From Actinoplanes octamycinicus (GTDB lineage: Bacteria > Actinomycetota > Actinomycetes > Mycobacteriales > Micromonosporaceae): a stretch of DNA of 64,000 nucleotides. The stretch covers positions 6,305,501-6,369,500 of the forward strand of contig NZ_JACHNB010000001.1 in NCBI RefSeq assembly GCF_014205225.1, in the 5' to 3' direction. The number at the start of each line of letters is the position of its first letter. Position 1 is the first letter of the stretch. The notes beneath the pieces were generated by a model. The model did not search any database. It was given only the letters and a program-made list of their open reading frames with translations, and was not told where the DNA came from. Positions 24,899 to 33,172 of this stretch are shown here, piece by piece. The translations under genes and the position numbers were made by a program.

Positions 24899-24957
24899 GC
24901 CGCCGATCTTACTCGGCGAGCGGTATCCGCCAGCTGGGCCGAAACGCGCCAGGCGGT

Positions 24958-26145
24958 TCACGCCGGCGTGGTCACCCGGGGTTCGCCGGACGGGATGGCG
25001 TGGTGGCGGCGGCTCGGCAGCATCGCGGTCGGGTGGGAGATGCTCCAGGCCGCGCTCTTGCAGATGATCTCCTTCAGGCGGGCGGCCGCCCTGCCGGTGA
25101 CCGCGGACGGCTTGGGCCGGTCGTCCGGCGTCACCCACTGCACGATGCCGTCGCGGCGGCCCAGGCTGATGCACTGCGCGGTGTAGCCGATCCGGTTCGG
25201 CGGGATCCGGCGACCGGTCAGGCGCGCCGCGATGACGTCGGCGGCCAGGTGGGCCGACGGCACCCCGGAGGCGCAGGACATCCGCAGCGGTTCGCCGTTC
25301 GCGCCGGGGGCGAACGCGGCGTCCCCGACGGCGTAGACGCCGGGATGCGAGACCGACCGCATGGTGTCGTCGACGACGATCTGTCCGGTGGGGCAGACCC
25401 GCAGGGTCGTGGCCGCGGCGAGCGGATGGACCGCGAAGCCGGCGGTCCAGACCGTCACCTGCGCCGGGAGCGTCCGGCCGTCGGCGGTGACGGCGCCGGT
25501 TGCCTCGACCCGCGCGATGCCGGTGTGCTCGTGCACGACGATGCCGAGCCGGTCGGCGGCCGCCCGCAGGTGAGTGCGGGCCTTGTCGCTCAGCCAGTCG
25601 CCGAGGCCGGCGCGGGCGGCGAGGGAGACCCGGAGGTCCGGCCGGGCCTCTGCGATCTCGGTGACCGCTTCGATGCCGGTCAGGCCGCCGCCGACGACGA
25701 GCACGGTTCCGCCCGGAGCGAGCGCGGCCAGGCGGTCACGTAGCCGCAGCGCGGACTGCCGGCCGGCGAGGTGGTGGGCATGCTCGGCGACGCCGGGAAC
25801 GCCACCGTCGGCGGCGGTGCTGCCGAGGGCGTAGACGAGCGTGTCGTAGGCGATCTCGCCGGGACCATCGGCGCCGACGATGCCGACGGTCCGGCGGTCG
25901 GGGTCGACGGCGTCGACCCGGGCCACCTTCACCTGTACGCCGGTGCCCGCGAAGACGTCGGTCAGCCGCCGGGGCCGCAGCTCCTGGCCGGTCGCCAGTT
26001 GGTGCATGCGGACCCGCTCGACGAAGTCGGGTTCCGCGTTGACCAGGGTGATCCCGGTGTCCGCGGGGTGCAGCCGCTTGGCCAGGCGCCCGGCCGCGTT
26101 GGCTCCGGCGTATCCGGCCCCGAGGACGACGATGCGGTGCTTCAT
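24958..26145 (-). CDS. FAD-dependent pyridine nucleotide oxidoreductase (Ndh-like)
   Basis: Flavoprotein of 395 aa. The FAD-binding GxGxxG motif is VVLGAGYAGANAA, the NAD(P)H-binding GxGxxG is VVGGGLTGIEAV and the C-terminal FAD segment is GVYAVGDAAF. It resembles NADH:quinone oxidoreductases or ferredoxin-type reductases without an obvious membrane anchor. It starts at ATG 26145 after GGGAGCC. It lies directly downstream of an ECF41 sigma factor on the same strand. ECF41 genes are typically next to an oxidoreductase, epimerase or carboxymuconolactone decarboxylase, so this is the probable sigma target. Confidence 0.82.
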   Translation of the reverse strand: MKHRIVVLGAGYAGANAAGRLAKRLHPADTGITLVNAEPDFVERVRMHQLATGQELRPRRLTDVFAGTGVQVKVARVDAVDPDRRTVGIVGADGPGEIAYDTLVYALGSTAADGGVPGVAEHAHHLAGRQSALRLRDRLAALAPGGTVLVVGGGLTGIEAVTEIAEARPDLRVSLAARAGLGDWLSDKARTHLRAAADRLGIVVHEHTGIARVEATGAVTADGRTLPAQVTVWTAGFAVHPLAAATTLRVCPTGQIVVDDTMRSVSHPGVYAVGDAAFAPGANGEPLRMSCASGVPSAHLAADVIAARLTGRRIPPNRIGYTAQCISLGRRDGIVQWVTPDDRPKPSAVTGRAAARLKEIICKSAAWSISHPTAMLPSRRHHAIPSGEPRVTTPA

Positions 26146-26216
26146 GGTCTGGCTCCCATCCGGTCGGTGTTCGCTTCCTGAACCGGATGGCGGTGCGAGA
26201 TCTGACAGCCGCGAGT

Positions 26217-26223
26217 TGTGACC
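26217..26223 (-). promoter_or_regulatory. possible ECF41-type -35 (GGTCACA) before the oxidoreductase
   Basis: On the minus strand GGTCACA, close to the TGTCACA -35 that I recall for ECF41 promoters, lies in the 82-nt gap upstream of the oxidoreductase. A convincing CGTC-type -10 at the right distance is not seen, so this is tentative. Confidence 0.25.
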
Positions 26224-26227
26224 TGAG

Positions 26228-27166
26228 TCACCAGGTGAGCGGCTCCCCGGGTGCCGCAGCGGCCCACTGACGGGTCGCGTGCCGGAGCTTGCCGGGGTTC
26301 GCCTGGGCGTGCACGCCCGCGATGCCGTCGGTGGTCACGTCCAGCGCGAACACCCCGGCGACCCGGTCGCCGACCACCATGACCAGTGCGGGTACGCCGT
26401 TCGCGACCGCGGCGAACAGGTCCGGACGGCCGCCGATCATCTCCCACTTGGCCGCGCTGGGCGTGAACAGCGTCCGCAGGAACCGCGCCACCCGCAGCGC
26501 CCCGGTGATCGGGTGCGGCACGGAGAACACCACGCCGCCGCCGTCACCGATGCTGATCGCGTCGTCGGTCAGCATCCGCACCAGCGAGTCGGTCCGGCCG
26601 CTGAGCGCCGCGGCGAGGAACTCCTCGACGATCCGGCGGGCCGCGGCGGCGTCGACCGGCACCCGGCGGCGCTCGTCGGCCAGGTGCTGCCTGGCCCGCC
26701 GGTGGATCTGCTGGCAGTTCGACTCGGTCAGGTCGAGCACCTCGGCGATCTCGGCGTGCGGGTATCCGAACGCCTCGCGCAGCACGTACACGACGCGTTC
26801 CCGGGCCGAGAGCCGCTCCATCAGCGTGAGCATCGCGAGGGAGACCGACTCGCGCTGCTCGACGGTGTCGGACGGGCCGAGCATCCGGTCCCCGGCGAAG
26901 ACCGGCTCGGGCAGCCACTGGCCCACATAGGTCTCCCGGCGGGCCCGCGCCGAGGTGAGCCGGTTGAGGCAGAGGTTGGTGAGCACCTTGGTCAGCCAGG
27001 CCTCGGGCGTCTCGATGAGTTCCCGCTCGGCGGCCTGCCAGCGCAGGAACGTGTCCTGCACCGCGTCCTCGGCGTCGTTCGCCGACCCCAGCAGCCGGTA
27101 CGCGATCGCCTCCAGCCGCGGCCTGGCCCGCTCGAACACCTCGACGTCATGCGCACCGACCAGCAT
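26228..27166 (-). CDS. ECF41-family sigma factor with SnoaL-like domain
   Basis: Extracytoplasmic-function sigma factor of 312 aa. Region 2 (AIAYRLLGSANDAEDAVQDTFLRW) and region 4 (HAEIAEVLDLTESNCQQIHRRAR) are clear. A C-terminal SnoaL/NTF2-like extension (about 185-312) carries the ECF41 hallmarks: WLPEP in the linker, DGGG near residue 215 and NPGKL near the end. In this family the extension replaces a separate anti-sigma factor and modulates activity. The start ATG at 27166 has no good ribosome site. The downstream flavin oxidoreductase is the expected partner gene. Confidence 0.9.
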   Translation of the reverse strand: MLVGAHDVEVFERARPRLEAIAYRLLGSANDAEDAVQDTFLRWQAAERELIETPEAWLTKVLTNLCLNRLTSARARRETYVGQWLPEPVFAGDRMLGPSDTVEQRESVSLAMLTLMERLSARERVVYVLREAFGYPHAEIAEVLDLTESNCQQIHRRARQHLADERRRVPVDAAAARRIVEEFLAAALSGRTDSLVRMLTDDAISIGDGGGVVFSVPHPITGALRVARFLRTLFTPSAAKWEMIGGRPDLFAAVANGVPALVMVVGDRVAGVFALDVTTDGIAGVHAQANPGKLRHATRQWAAAAPGEPLTW

Positions 27167-27227
27167 GGAGCACAGTTAAGCATCCACACCGGAGACCGTG
27201 ATCCGGCATGCCGGCTGTCGCCGCCGT

Positions 27228-28043
27228 TCAGAGGCCCCCGAGAACCTGGTGGAAGTTCTGCCAGCCGCGGCCGATCGGGTTGCTGGAATGCGGGTGCCAG
27301 CCGGTGGCGCCGGTCTGGTCGGCGGTGCCGTCGCCGGTGTAGCGGTACCAGAGGAGGTCCCCGTCGTGTTTGATGGCCAGGACTTGGCCGTTGCCGATGC
27401 CGAAGACCTGTTGGAAGTTCTGCCAGCCGCGGCCGATGGGGTTGCTGGAGTTGGCGTCCCAGCCGGTGGCGCCGGTCTGGTCGGCCTTGCCGTCGCCGGT
27501 GTAGCGGTACCAGAGGAGGTCCCCGTCGTGTTTGATGGCCAGGACTTGGCCGTTGCCGATGCCGAAGACCTGTTGGAAGTTCTGCCAGCCGCGGCCGATG
27601 GGGTTGCTGGAGTTGGCGTCCCAGCCGGTGGCGCCGGTCTGGTCGGCCTTGCCGTCGCCGGTGTAGCGGTACCAGAGGAGGTCCCCGTCGTGTTTGATGG
27701 CCAGGACTTGGCCGTTGCCGATGCCGAAGACCTGTTGGAAGTTCTGCCAGCCGCGGCCGATGGGGTTGCTGGAGTTGGCGTCCCAGCCGGTGGCGCCGGT
27801 CTGGTCGGCCTTACCGTCGCCGGTGTAGCGGTACCAGAGGAGGTCCCCGTCGTGTTTGATCGCGAGGACTTGGCCGTTGCCGATGCCGAAGACCCGTTGG
27901 AAGTTCTGCCAGCCACGGCCCACCGGGTTGCTGGAATTCGGCTCCCAGCCGGTAGCACCTGTCTGATCCGCCGTACCGTCACCGGTGTACCGGTACCACA
28001 GCAGATCACCATCGTGTTTGATCGCGAACACCACGCCTGCCAT
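27228..28043 (-). CDS. five-bladed tachylectin-2-like beta-propeller lectin
   Basis: Protein of 271 aa made entirely of five repeats: a 50-aa first blade and four 54-aa blades. Each has the pattern AIKHDGDLLWYRYTG, then NSSNP(I/V)GRGWQNF. This fits the tachylectin-2 fold, where the GGW-N/D-F segment precedes each strand set and each blade binds GlcNAc/GalNAc-type sugars. Blades 2, 3 and 4 are identical in protein sequence. There is no signal peptide, so it acts inside the cell or leaves by another route or lysis. I chose the ATG at 28043, directly behind GAGGAG, rejecting an upstream extension of Arg/Pro-rich non-repeat sequence. Sugar specificity is inferred. Confidence 0.85.
   Translation of the reverse strand: MAGVVFAIKHDGDLLWYRYTGDGTADQTGATGWEPNSSNPVGRGWQNFQRVFGIGNGQVLAIKHDGDLLWYRYTGDGKADQTGATGWDANSSNPIGRGWQNFQQVFGIGNGQVLAIKHDGDLLWYRYTGDGKADQTGATGWDANSSNPIGRGWQNFQQVFGIGNGQVLAIKHDGDLLWYRYTGDGKADQTGATGWDANSSNPIGRGWQNFQQVFGIGNGQVLAIKHDGDLLWYRYTGDGTADQTGATGWHPHSSNPIGRGWQNFHQVLGGL
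27246..27893. repeat. four tandem 162-bp units encoding propeller blades 2-5
   Basis: Units 27246-27407, 27408-27569, 27570-27731 and 27732-27893 encode blades 5 to 2. The middle units appear identical base for base, a third differs at only a few positions, and the outermost differs more. A partial fifth copy (27894-28043) is the most diverged. This gradient suggests recent amplification or ongoing gene conversion. Confidence 0.9.
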
Positions 28044-28341
28044 TGCCTGTCTCCTCGTTGAGAAATCGGTGCCACCGCACGGGCCAGCAGAGTTGCCTTT
28101 CATCGTCCTCCGCGGGTGGCAGCGTCGGCCCTGGACGAGCGGCGCATAACCGCTGAGCCTCCGGCCCGGCCCGGCCGTCCGAAAAGCTCCCTCCGCCTGG
28201 GACAGACGGGCGCGCGGTCCGGTAGATCGGCGTGGCGAAGCCCCGGACCGGCCGACCCCGGCCACGAGATGGCGTGCCGGTATCAGGAGGTCAGTGCGCT
28301 GCGGTTGGGCGATGGCTGCCGCCTCCCCGGCAAGCCGTCCG
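28044..28341. other. 298-bp intergenic region upstream of the lectin gene
   Basis: No supported gene. It holds the lectin's ribosome site next to 28043 and presumably its promoter. Short GC-rich inverted repeats (GGTCCGG...CCGGACC near 28220-28255) are present, but no clear -10/-35 pair or known RNA element was seen. Confidence 0.5.
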
Positions 28342-28575
28342 TCACTCGTTCGCGGCGGCTGGGCGTCGCAGGGCGAGAGTGGCGTGGACCTGGGCGAGCT
28401 GCGTGGTGGCGGTGAGCATCGCGAGGTCGGCGCCGGGAACGTACGGCTCCTCCGAATGATCGTCCTCGTTGATGTTGGTGTGGTAGTCGACCAGGCAGAT
28501 CTGGTAGAGGCGTTCGGCCTCGTCGATGAGCTCGGCGGCGCGGGCGGCGTGTTCGTCAGCAGTCATGGTGATCAT
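28342..28575 (-). CDS. small hypothetical protein, 77 aa
   Basis: Small acidic protein, MITMTADEHAARAAEL at the N-terminus, predicted to be mostly helical, with ALIDEAERLYQICLVDYH-like sequence and a central NINEDDHSEEPY loop. It starts at ATG 28575, with a second ATG at 28566 equally possible; neither has a strong ribosome site. No family recognised. Codon usage is typical of real genes and the opposite strand encodes nothing plausible here. Confidence 0.5.
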   Translation of the reverse strand: MITMTADEHAARAAELIDEAERLYQICLVDYHTNINEDDHSEEPYVPGADLAMLTATTQLAQVHATLALRRPAAANE

Positions 28576-28691
28576 GGTGTCATCCAGCCCGCCGATCCTG
28601 CCGATGGCGCGTGGTGCCGGGAGCGGGCTGTGGGCCGGCCTCACTTGCGGCGGTCACCAGAACGCACCCGCGTGCCACGGTGGCCGGAACC

Positions 28692-28697
28692 TATCCT
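28692..28697 (+). promoter_or_regulatory. -10 TATCCT, leaderless promoter
   Basis: TATCCT lies exactly 7 nt before the ATG at 28705, which lacks a Shine-Dalgarno. A leaderless mRNA is predicted. Confidence 0.5.
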
Positions 28698-28704
28698 CGA
28701 AGCC

Positions 28705-29463
28705 ATGATCGCCGCTCACCTCAACGCTCTGGTGGACTTCTGCGCTCAGCGTGACGTCGGCGCGCTGAGCCGTGACGAGGTGGGTGACGTGGATGTCGCC
28801 ATCCTCTTCGGCGGCAGCATCCTCGCGGGCGGTGATCTCTTCGCACGGGCCATCGCCGACGAGCTCGCCGCCTGCTTCATGATCGTCGGTGGGCGGGGGC
28901 ACTCCACCGACGTCCTGCGGGCCGCCATGCGGCGAAGGATGGGATGGGACGACGTCGCGGGTCTGACCGAGGCCGCGCTCTTCGACCGCTATCTCACTGA
29001 GAGGTACGACGTGCGCGCCGACCTGCTCGAACACGAGTCGACGAACTGCGGGAACAACGTCCGTAACGCATTGGCGCTGCTTGCCGACAAAGGAGTGCCG
29101 CATCGGCGGATTCTGCTGATCCAGGACGCCTCGATGCAGCGGCGTATGGACGCCGGGTTCCGGCTGTTGGCGCCTGCCGCGCGGATCGTGAACTTCGCCG
29201 CTCACCGGACGCCGGTCGACCTGATCGGCGGGGAGCTGGGGTTCCGGTCGCCGCCGGAGGGAATGTGGCCAGTGGACCGGTACGTCTCGATGCTGATGGG
29301 GGAGATCCCGCGGCTCACCGATGACGGCGACGGGTATGGGCCGGCCGGGCGGGGGTTCATCGCGCACGTCACCGTTCCGGAAAGGATCCAGCAAGCGTAC
29401 GAGGCCCTGCGCCGCGCTGGGGTGGGGGCGCCTCGCGCCGCCGATCAGCGGTGGGCGGGCTGA
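28705..29463 (+). CDS. YdcF/ElyC-type DUF218 protein
   Basis: Protein of 252 aa in the DUF218 (ElyC/SanA/YdcF) superfamily. Visible features are the nucleotide-like first strand VAILFGGSIL, GGRGHSTDVL, the conserved acidic/Asn segment EHESTNCGNNVRNA-like and LIQDASMQRRM. There is no membrane anchor, so it resembles cytoplasmic YdcF (reported to bind S-adenosylmethionine) more than the envelope ElyC/SanA members. The ATG at 28705 is supported by the leaderless -10. The frame extends upstream without homology. Substrate unknown. Confidence 0.75.
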   Translation: MIAAHLNALVDFCAQRDVGALSRDEVGDVDVAILFGGSILAGGDLFARAIADELAACFMIVGGRGHSTDVLRAAMRRRMGWDDVAGLTEAALFDRYLTERYDVRADLLEHESTNCGNNVRNALALLADKGVPHRRILLIQDASMQRRMDAGFRLLAPAARIVNFAAHRTPVDLIGGELGFRSPPEGMWPVDRYVSMLMGEIPRLTDDGDGYGPAGRGFIAHVTVPERIQQAYEALRRAGVGAPRAADQRWAG

Positions 29464-29514
29464 GCCGGCCAACGGCGTCGGTGTATTCGTGCCCCGGTGG
29501 GGTAGCCGGACGGC

Positions 29515-29637
29515 ATGCGTATCGGAAACATGCAAGTCCGGTTCCTCGGCGGGCCGGTCGGCTGCCTCGGCATGATCCTGGTGTCGATCCTGTTGTCGGT
29601 CGGACTGACCGTCCTGCTCAACCTCTTCCTGCGGTAA
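29515..29637 (+). CDS. 40-aa single-helix membrane protein
   Basis: Short gene encoding MRIGNMQVRFLGG followed by one hydrophobic helix (CLGMILVSILLSVGLTVLL) and NLFLR at the end. A GGGGT lies 11 nt before the ATG. A large hairpin terminator follows directly, which supports a transcribed unit. It resembles small single-pass proteins common in actinomycetes; function unknown. Confidence 0.55.
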   Translation: MRIGNMQVRFLGGPVGCLGMILVSILLSVGLTVLLNLFLR

Positions 29638-31159: not shown

Positions 31160-31534
31160 CTAGCTCCCCGAGTCTGCGGTGCGGAGGCGGATGAGGAATC
31201 CGGCGAACCGCCGATCGTCGAGGTCGTTGTTCCACTTCTCCGCCGCGATGACCGGCGTCACGACACCGGATCCGGCGACCGGCTCGGGAGCGAAACGGCA
31301 GTGCAGCGTGGCGATCGAGACCACCGTGCCCGCGGTCCGCGGAGCGCTTCCATCGCCATGGTGGTCCTCGACGGCGTCGATGGTCGCGGCGACGCCGTCG
31401 TGCAGTACGGTGTCGAGCCAACTCAACTCGGTGGGATTGGGGTTCCGCAGCCGCCACGCCACGTCGCTGCGCTCCCCGAACGGCGTACCGCAGCACTCCA
31501 TCTGCCAGCCGTCCATCCATACGTCAAGGTGCAC
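31160..31534 (-). CDS. DUF6578-family protein
   Basis: Actinobacterial protein of 124 aa with the N-terminal signature VWMDGWQMECCGTPFG of DUF6578. A beta-rich body contains WRLRNPNP and TVVSIATLHCRF. Function is not known. Its ATG at 31534 overlaps the end of the Fic gene by 11 nt, so the two are translationally coupled and probably act together. Confidence 0.8.
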   Translation of the reverse strand: MHLDVWMDGWQMECCGTPFGERSDVAWRLRNPNPTELSWLDTVLHDGVAATIDAVEDHHGDGSAPRTAGTVVSIATLHCRFAPEPVAGSGVVTPVIAAEKWNNDLDDRRFAGFLIRLRTADSGS

Positions 31535-32981
31535 GGTTCAAGTCTCCCAGATAGGAATCTTGTGACCGTCGGGTCTGCTTGATGAGCGTGGCGACGAATC
31601 GGGCCAGCCCTTCGGCGCCGTGCGCGTCGGGGGTCGGCCAGCGGGTCATCAGCAGCGGGGCGGCGCGGTCCAGCACCACCTCCTCGCGCGCGAGCACGAA
31701 GTACAGCGCGAGCGCCGCCGATCGCGCGTTGCCGTCGGCGAACGGGTGGAAGTGCAGCACGTCGAGGTACACCCGCGCGGCGCGCGACGGCAGCGGTACC
31801 GCCGGGTCGGTGGCTTCGGCGAGACACACCTCGAAGGCCCCGGGCAGCTCCTCGCGGTATGCGTAGCGTTCCCGGCCGCCTCGCGCCCAGGCGGACGTCG
31901 TACGAAACGGTACGGCGGCTGCCGCGAGCACCTTCCGTTGCCACGTCTCCAGCCGCGCGAACGTGAGCGAGCCGCCCTCGGCAGCGTCCGCGCGCACCAG
32001 CTCCACCGCGGCCAGAGCACGGCTGCCGTCGTACTTGCGCCGCGCCAGATGCTCGGCGATGCCGTCGCGTGCCGTCCGGACCGGCCCGGTGACGTGCTCG
32101 ACCGCGTGCTCCCACCGAGCCGCCTCCCGGACCTGCCGCCAGGCCTCCAGCGTGTCGGGCACCGCAGGCGCGGTGACCCACGGCGCCCGGGCGGCGGTGG
32201 GCAGCTCGGTGCTCCGCCAGCTGGGCCAGTCCTGCGGCCAGGTGTCGGGCCAGACGTCGTCCGGTGCGGCCGGGACGCCGGTGAGCATCGCCGCCAGGGA
32301 CTCCGCGGCGTCGGCCACCTCGGCGCCCAGCGGGGAGACGAAGCTCCAGAACCGCCCGCCGATCGCCGCGTCGACGAGCGCGTCGTGGTTCTCGCCGGGC
32401 ACCTCGGCGACGGCCAGGAACCACTTCAGGACCAGGGCGCAGACCGGGTACCAGTGCTCGTCGGCACCGGATCGCGCCGCCACGGTGGCGACCAGGGAGG
32501 CGACGGTGGCCTCCCACGCGCGGGACGCCGCGCGCGGGTCGGCGGGCAGCGGCAGATGCCGCGGGAACAGCTCGGCCAGGTCGTCGAGGAAGATCCGCCA
32601 GTCCACGAGCGCCCCGGCGACGGCGTCGAGCGTCTCCTCCGGCGTCGTGATCGACTCCCGGGCGCCGCTCCACCGCACCACCATGGCGCCGTCGGCCGTG
32701 AGCCCGGCCATCTCGGCGAGCCAGCCGCAGGCCCAGACGCCGTAGTGCTCGGCCAGGGCAACGGTCATCGCCCGCTGCCAGTCCCAGCGCGCCTGATCCG
32801 CGAGGTGATCGAAGCCGCGGCCCGGGTCGTACCGGAAAGGCTCCGGCACGCCGCCCGCCGGCGCTATCGCTCGCACGACGTCGTGCACGGTGCCCGGATC
32901 GAACGGGTGCCGATCGGGGTCCACGTCTGCCCAGGTGAGAGCGTTGACGCGCAGCCGTGGAAAGGAGAACTCGCTCGTCAT
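31524..32981 (-). CDS. Fic-domain protein (putative AMP transferase)
   Basis: Protein of 485 aa. The C-terminal Fic/DOC domain has the active-site loop HPFADGNAR (near residues 411-419), close to HPFx(D/E)GN(G/K)R, with Ala at the variable position. Catalytic His and the phosphate-binding Arg are kept, so transfer of AMP or another nucleotide monophosphate to protein hydroxyls is plausible. The N-terminal 300 residues are an uncharacterised, Trp-rich helical domain. No clear inhibitory (S/T)xxxE(G/N) motif was found. I chose ATG 32981 (MTSEF); 32999 is possible. It is followed by the overlapping DUF6578 gene, which may be a partner, antidote or target. Confidence 0.8.
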   Translation of the reverse strand: MTSEFSFPRLRVNALTWADVDPDRHPFDPGTVHDVVRAIAPAGGVPEPFRYDPGRGFDHLADQARWDWQRAMTVALAEHYGVWACGWLAEMAGLTADGAMVVRWSGARESITTPEETLDAVAGALVDWRIFLDDLAELFPRHLPLPADPRAASRAWEATVASLVATVAARSGADEHWYPVCALVLKWFLAVAEVPGENHDALVDAAIGGRFWSFVSPLGAEVADAAESLAAMLTGVPAAPDDVWPDTWPQDWPSWRSTELPTAARAPWVTAPAVPDTLEAWRQVREAARWEHAVEHVTGPVRTARDGIAEHLARRKYDGSRALAAVELVRADAAEGGSLTFARLETWQRKVLAAAAVPFRTTSAWARGGRERYAYREELPGAFEVCLAEATDPAVPLPSRAARVYLDVLHFHPFADGNARSAALALYFVLAREEVVLDRAAPLLMTRWPTPDAHGAEGLARFVATLIKQTRRSQDSYLGDLNRAP

Positions 32982-33172
32982 CGCCGGCCATCGTGCCACG
33001 GCCGTGGCACGGATGGTGACCTATTAATCGGTGCTCGGTCCACTTCGAAGATCAGGTCCAGGCCCTGGGCCACGACGGCCCACGTGGACACCTGGTGGCG
33101 GGTCGGCGTGCGCGGACCGGCGCCCACCACGAGGATAGTGATCATGATGGTTGAGGCGGGGGAAATCGCGCA

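Follow-up and report, generated by a model that had tools for sequence, protein, structure and literature searches.

Most major families of the beta-propeller fold include members whose blades are nearly identical, and the highly repetitive propellers of tachylectin-like type are unique to Actinobacteria and Cnidaria, as described in the cited parts of the survey by Pereira and Lupas (2022; PMC9218822); tachylectins of corals are treated in sections of PMC2880987. In VCBS propellers, internal blades have been amplified again inside an older amplification (PMC9218822, same parts). For the tachylectins, the experiments excerpted from PMC4735018 indicate that fusions of identical motifs are functional and very stable but also aggregation-prone, and that diversification of the motifs improves folding.

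The lectin gene described here lies in the window, which is the whole stretch of 64,000 nucleotides from Actinoplanes octamycinicus that was analysed. It has in common with tachylectin-2 of Tachypleus tridentatus (PDB entry: 1TL2) and its Nematostella homologue the five tandem motifs and the family profile, and it appears to have the chain frame of tachylectin-2, in which the N-terminal blade lacks a strand that the C-terminus has to supply (Velcro closure, in the terms of the excerpted PMC4735018). However, its motifs of 54 residues are 86–100% alike over the 42 residues compared (mean 91.7%), which is above the 60% mark of highly repetitive propellers, whereas the motifs of tachylectin-2 average 54% (PMC4735018, same excerpt). 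The lectin is also bacterial and leaderless, and the likeness in chain frame is drawn from sequence. Near-identical blades are shared with the highly repetitive tachylectin-like and VCBS propellers of PMC9218822; the cited parts of its main text do not name this gene. The propeller WRAP Npun_R6612 (PMC6805158 and PMC9218822, both in part) is, like the lectin, recently amplified, with blades reported to carry no synonymous changes, but it is of WD40 type, has 14 blades and is thought to have been amplified in one event, whereas the lectin is recent only in its centre. The Anc5V-type proteins (PMC4735018, in part) share with the lectin the five near-identical motifs and the Velcro frame, but these are laboratory constructs with fully identical motifs, whereas the lectin is natural and its terminal motifs have diverged. 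No publication on the lectin gene was found in searches of the literature on tachylectin and Actinoplanes or on tachylectin-like propellers of Actinobacteria. The gene and its likely ribosome-binding motif are the following:

27228..28043, minus strand: tachylectin-type lectin gene with five units (ORF, upstream GAGGAG, Pfam PF14517)
28051..28056, minus strand: GAGGAG, 7 bases upstream of the lectin ATG, by inspection a likely ribosome-binding motif

The ORF begins with the ATG at 28043 and encodes 271 amino acids followed by TGA, with three residues preceding unit 1. A sequence-only reading had given the span as 27246..28043; the end at 28043 is correct, but the other lies 18 bases inside the true 3' end. 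It had also described the protein as lacking a signal peptide, and by inspection no hydrophobic leader follows the ATG at 28043, nor does one follow a second in-frame ATG, which lies 20 codons upstream at 28103. A search for sites resembling promoters or terminators of the gene found none. The protein matches the Pfam family Tachylectin (PF14517) with an E-value of 2.4e-27 and 96.6 bits (cut-off 29.8), over residues 7–265 of the protein and positions 1–229 of the 230 of the profile, and the five tandem blade motifs that characterize this family are present. Two further Pfam models, FG-GAP_3 and Death, come up to their cut-offs only as the sum of several weak matches, none of which passes singly; among the NCBIfam models none is above its cut-off for this protein. 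The profile of a four-sequence alignment matches PDB chain 5c2m, listed as 'predicted protein', with an E-value of 3e-8, and PDB entry 3kif, a '5-bladed beta-propeller lectin', with an E-value of 0.0083; we take 5c2m to be Nematostella tachylectin-2. As a single sequence, the lectin matches the solved tachylectin-type structures weakly (E 0.0098).

The gene consists of five tandem units of 54 residues, the last of which is shorter:

27873..28034, minus strand: unit 1, at the N-terminus, with the greatest synonymous divergence (differs from unit 2 at 23 codons, at 16 of them synonymously)
27711..27872, minus strand: unit 2, identical in protein to units 3 and 4, with three synonymous differences
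27549..27710, minus strand: unit 3, identical in DNA to unit 4
27387..27548, minus strand: unit 4, identical in DNA to unit 3
27231..27386, minus strand: unit 5, C-terminal, first 20 codons equal to those of units 3 and 4, remainder diverged (codon table)
27326..27812, minus strand: perfectly periodic core of 487 bases in three units (exact self-match and mismatch map)

Three blades had been reported as identical in protein and two 162-bp units as apparently identical in DNA; this is what is observed, the three blades being units 2, 3 and 4 and the two DNA units being units 3 and 4 (162 of 162 bases). Unit 2 differs from each of these two at three bases, all synonymous. Unit 5 differs from unit 4 in 12 codons, stop codon counted, 3 of which are synonymous, and unit 1 differs from the other units at 16 to 19 synonymous codons. 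The rough Nei–Gojobori dS, calculated over 51 codons, is 0.94–1.32 between unit 1 and the other units, 0.18 between unit 5 and units 3 and 4, 0.30 between unit 5 and unit 2, 0.096 between unit 2 and units 3 and 4, and 0 between units 3 and 4. That copied blades hardly differ at synonymous sites, which is taken as the mark of recent amplification, thus holds for units 2–4 and not for unit 1. At the rate seen between units 1 and 2 (16 of 47 same-residue codons), the chance of zero differences in 54 codons is 1.7e-10.

The core extends from codon 21 of unit 2 to the first base of codon 21 of unit 5 and has an exact self-match of 325 bases at a shift of 162; the array also gives the highest score (1318) of the 10 rows returned by Tandem Repeats Finder for the window. 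When the gene is compared with a repeat of unit 3, mismatches are found at 49 of 804 positions, 33 in gene bases 10–231, none in 232–718 and 16 in 719–812, such that all 49 lie outside the core, towards the gene ends. When 49 mismatches were placed at random 10,000 times, the largest gap was 70 on average and at most 201, as against the observed 487, and in no placement did the mismatches lie on average as far from the centre as observed. Units 1 and 5 share states that distinguish them from units 2–4, namely Thr at codon 21, Pro at codon 32 and CCG at codon 37. Because this Pro is found in units 1 and 5 and also at that blade position in 13 of the 15 blades of three relatives (G050, G395 and G838, see below), it is the core units 2–4 that carry states of their own. 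The GC3 value is 0.745 for unit 1 and 0.92–0.94 for the other units, and codon choice near the gene start, instead of age, may be part of the cause of the synonymous divergence of unit 1.

Relatives were counted at an E-value of 0.001 in overlapping genome sets, the genome of the window being included each time and the order and class sets being samples; a match to the lectin is present in 9 of 67 genomes of the genus, 40 of 354 of the family, 13 of 150 mixed relatives, 18 of 397 in the order sample and 6 of 394 in the class sample. The best relatives are G395, from the same family (48% identity), which is fused to an apparent metallopeptidase as judged by inspection, and two standalone proteins, G050 from the same genus (45%) and G838 from the same class (49 and 50% over two pieces). 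Their identity to the lectin is 45–50% in these search pieces and 42–44% in the alignment, and G050 and G838 have no evident leader by inspection. All three have five units, as has the lectin, but the mean blade identity within each protein is 51% for G395, 50% for G050 and 54% for G838, as against 92% in the lectin. An equally homogeneous orthologue, which would have spoken for long-standing selection, was not found in the genus, family, mixed, order and class sets searched, and the proposal of recent copying has therefore survived this comparison. The closest homologues found are distant and non-homogeneous, leaving no close homologue with which the amplification could be compared, and a second strain with the lectin gene was likewise absent from the genus, family, mixed, order and class sets. 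The genome of the window is a single contig of 10,277,926 bases, in which the only match to the lectin is the gene itself. Four plasmid records match it at 26–31% identity, no phage record matches, and a viral scan with the alignment returned 38 pattern stretches and no relative. The only locus from the genome-contig scan (L017) was set aside, being a propeller of PQQ type by the look of its protein.

When the blades of G050 and G838 are compared, blades 1, 2 and 3 each have their best partner at the same position (61, 63 and 72%), blade 4 of G050 is nearer to blade 3 of G838 (65%) than to its blade 4 (58%), and blade 5 ties; against G395, position is clearly best only for blades 2 and 5 of G050 and blade 5 of G838. 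Since blades 1–3 pair by position, the five-blade layout looks older than the lectin core, an impression that comes mainly from G050 and G838. The blade tree, calculated from 43 columns, leaves 14 of its 20 inner branches open, and the five lectin units group together in just 30% of the 200 bootstrap trees, which leaves a single origin of these units without tree support.

The chain frames also differ. The three relatives have an extra strand-bearing stretch at the front and end after the IG.GW region, whereas the lectin starts one strand later, and its last strand is the one found at the front of the relatives. In the terms used in the cited part of PMC4735018, the lectin looks like a protein in the Velcro frame of tachylectin-2 and G050, G838 and G395 look like proteins in the intact-blade frame. 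The single-sequence structure model of the lectin is poor (mean pLDDT 51, pTM 0.30) and gives the Velcro frame no support, having a helix in place of the closing strand.

Blade homogeneity was also scanned for in 57 relative loci, some of which come from one gene, as self-identity at shifts of 117–195 bases in a 150-base window. Six of the 57 reach at least 80% (L005, L006, L038, L039, L040 and L057), and blade homogeneity is therefore recurrent among the relatives of the lectin; by inspection, four of these are FG-GAP/VCBS-like and two are tachylectin-like. One locus (L048) was left out, its perfect score being due to a run of N. Another (L047, about 1413–2945), which was below 80% and is outside the six counted, had been matched by the lectin query and is probably a false hit, with no propeller but a repeat array whose translation is reminiscent of CRISPR. 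The locus L006 (1–2034, from genome G029 of the same genus) is by inspection an FG-GAP/VCBS-like propeller with the blade order A-B-A-B-B and a self-identity of 95% in its best 150-base window. It looks like an amplification from a two-blade unit, of which a single case, called the only one observed so far, is described in the cited part of PMC9218822. The loci L038, L039 and L040, from the same family, are VCBS-like by inspection, with 86–95% blade identity in DNA (best 150-base window), and their propellers are C-terminal, behind a glycine-rich linker. The locus L005, from genome G142 of the same order, has another domain followed by tachylectin-like blades with a DNA identity of about 87%, and this may be an independent amplification.

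Downstream of the lectin gene are two genes that are no part of it, the first of which adjoins it directly:

26228..27166, minus strand: ECF sigma factor of SigJ type (NCBIfam NF007214 SigJ, 291.3 bits, cut-off 271)
24958..26145, minus strand: pyridine nucleotide-disulfide oxidoreductase-like gene, paired with the sigma factor (listed NCBIfam matches all below their cut-offs)

A sigma factor match beyond 1e-80 is present in 25 of the 67 genus genomes, that of the window included, and the oxidoreductase gene is adjacent in all 25; the lectin is found within 1.5 kb on either side of the sigma gene in one of these, the window's own. The lectin and the sigma factor are linked by nothing beyond position, and no regulatory link is claimed because a scan of 24901–29600 with one sigma-factor target pattern gave no site. 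In four relatives (L085–L088) the DNA similarity to the window stops at 27160–27168, at the start of the sigma gene, so that the insertion site of the lectin gene is not mappable from them. The G+C content is 66.4% for the lectin gene vs 71.7% for the window, which only hints at horizontal arrival of the gene, but the DNA from there to about 30.5 kb has a lower G+C as well. A gene with a DUF218 domain at 28705–29463 has matches in 30 of the 67 genus genomes, own genome included, and was not found in the 15-kb stretches that surround the sigma pair in the four relatives. Further on, the ORF at 31524–32999 holds the stretch HPFADGN, presumably like the motif of Fic domains.

It is likely that this gene encodes a cytoplasmic (leaderless) five-bladed lectin of tachylectin type, the ring of which was recently re-grown from within. 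The ancestral gene would have possessed units 1 and 5 at its ends and one or more middle units. Unequal exchange or slippage, as forms of recombination between its direct repeats, would then have multiplied one middle unit of 162 bases, or overwritten existing middle units, with the perfect three-unit core and five units in total as the outcome. In a tandem array, the ends of which escape homogenisation, unequal exchange and conversion leave a homogeneous centre with diverged ends. We infer at least two layers of copying, an older amplification from which the likeness of units 1, 5 and a middle unit would stem, and a second, recent one confined to the core. Synonymous identity cannot be explained by selection at the protein level alone, and the centre has therefore been expanded or homogenised recently, which for the centre bears out the earlier proposal of recent amplification or gene conversion (0 or 3 synonymous differences among units 2–4, clean 487-base core). 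The view of the locus as a snapshot of propeller birth finds no support, since relatives with five diverged units exist in the genus, the family and the class, and the gene itself shows two or more layers of copying. It is possible, although not likely, that gene conversion homogenised the middle of an existing five-unit gene and no unit was added. This would agree with the five units of G050, G395 and G838 and with the concerted evolution that a homogeneous centre between diverged ends suggests, but a perfectly periodic block of three units needs the fewest steps when two copies of one hybrid unit are added, which is an argument of parsimony and not proof, and the usual trace of conversion is patchy tracts. 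A multivalent lectin may gain from equal sites, as argued for tachylectin-2 in the cited part of PMC4735018; that protein selection alone keeps the blades identical, with no recent copying, is nevertheless extremely improbable when units 3 and 4 have no synonymous difference and unit 2 has three from them, 16 codons differ synonymously between units 1 and 2, and the blades of the three closest relatives found are only about 50% alike. Short-read assembly can be misled by a perfect repeat core of 487 bases, but a collapsed or expanded unit number is very unlikely here, as the genome is one 10.28-Mb contig, suggesting long reads, the three closest relatives found also have five units, and the ends of the array are unique and in frame.

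For the re-grown ring, the molecular function can be proposed from family membership. The protein would fold as a five-bladed ring closed by the C-terminal strand and would have several binding sites for N-acetyl sugars, of which the family is expected to bind one per blade, or for other glycans. It may act on glycans of the cell wall or of competitors once lysis or a non-classical route has released it. The weak similarity of the single sequence to the solved tachylectin-type structures would also fit a propeller that binds proteins or is structural and binds no sugar; we regard this as rather doubtful, as the lectin belongs to the Pfam family Tachylectin, and VCBS-like propellers are typically tied to carbohydrate recognition, although also to protein contacts, according to the cited part of PMC9218822.

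The lectin is a clean, recent re-amplification inside an existing lectin family, and the process itself has already been published for such propellers. What is added is a natural five-motif tachylectin with near-identical motifs, apparently in the Velcro frame, the three closest relatives found having a different frame. It is conceivable, but we think it unlikely, that an intact-blade ancestor with five motifs was re-amplified and re-cut into the Velcro frame, with the terminal motifs diverging first, which would make the lectin a natural intermediate on the laboratory route to tachylectin-2. If so, the diverged ends would relieve the folding frustration of identical motifs, and the recombination-prone core could change the blade number. 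A natural protein whose three central motifs are identical and whose ends have diverged makes the trade-off between stability and aggregation measurable in something that a cell keeps, and the DNA pattern predicts strains that would differ by whole 162-base units of the core, with the ends fixed.
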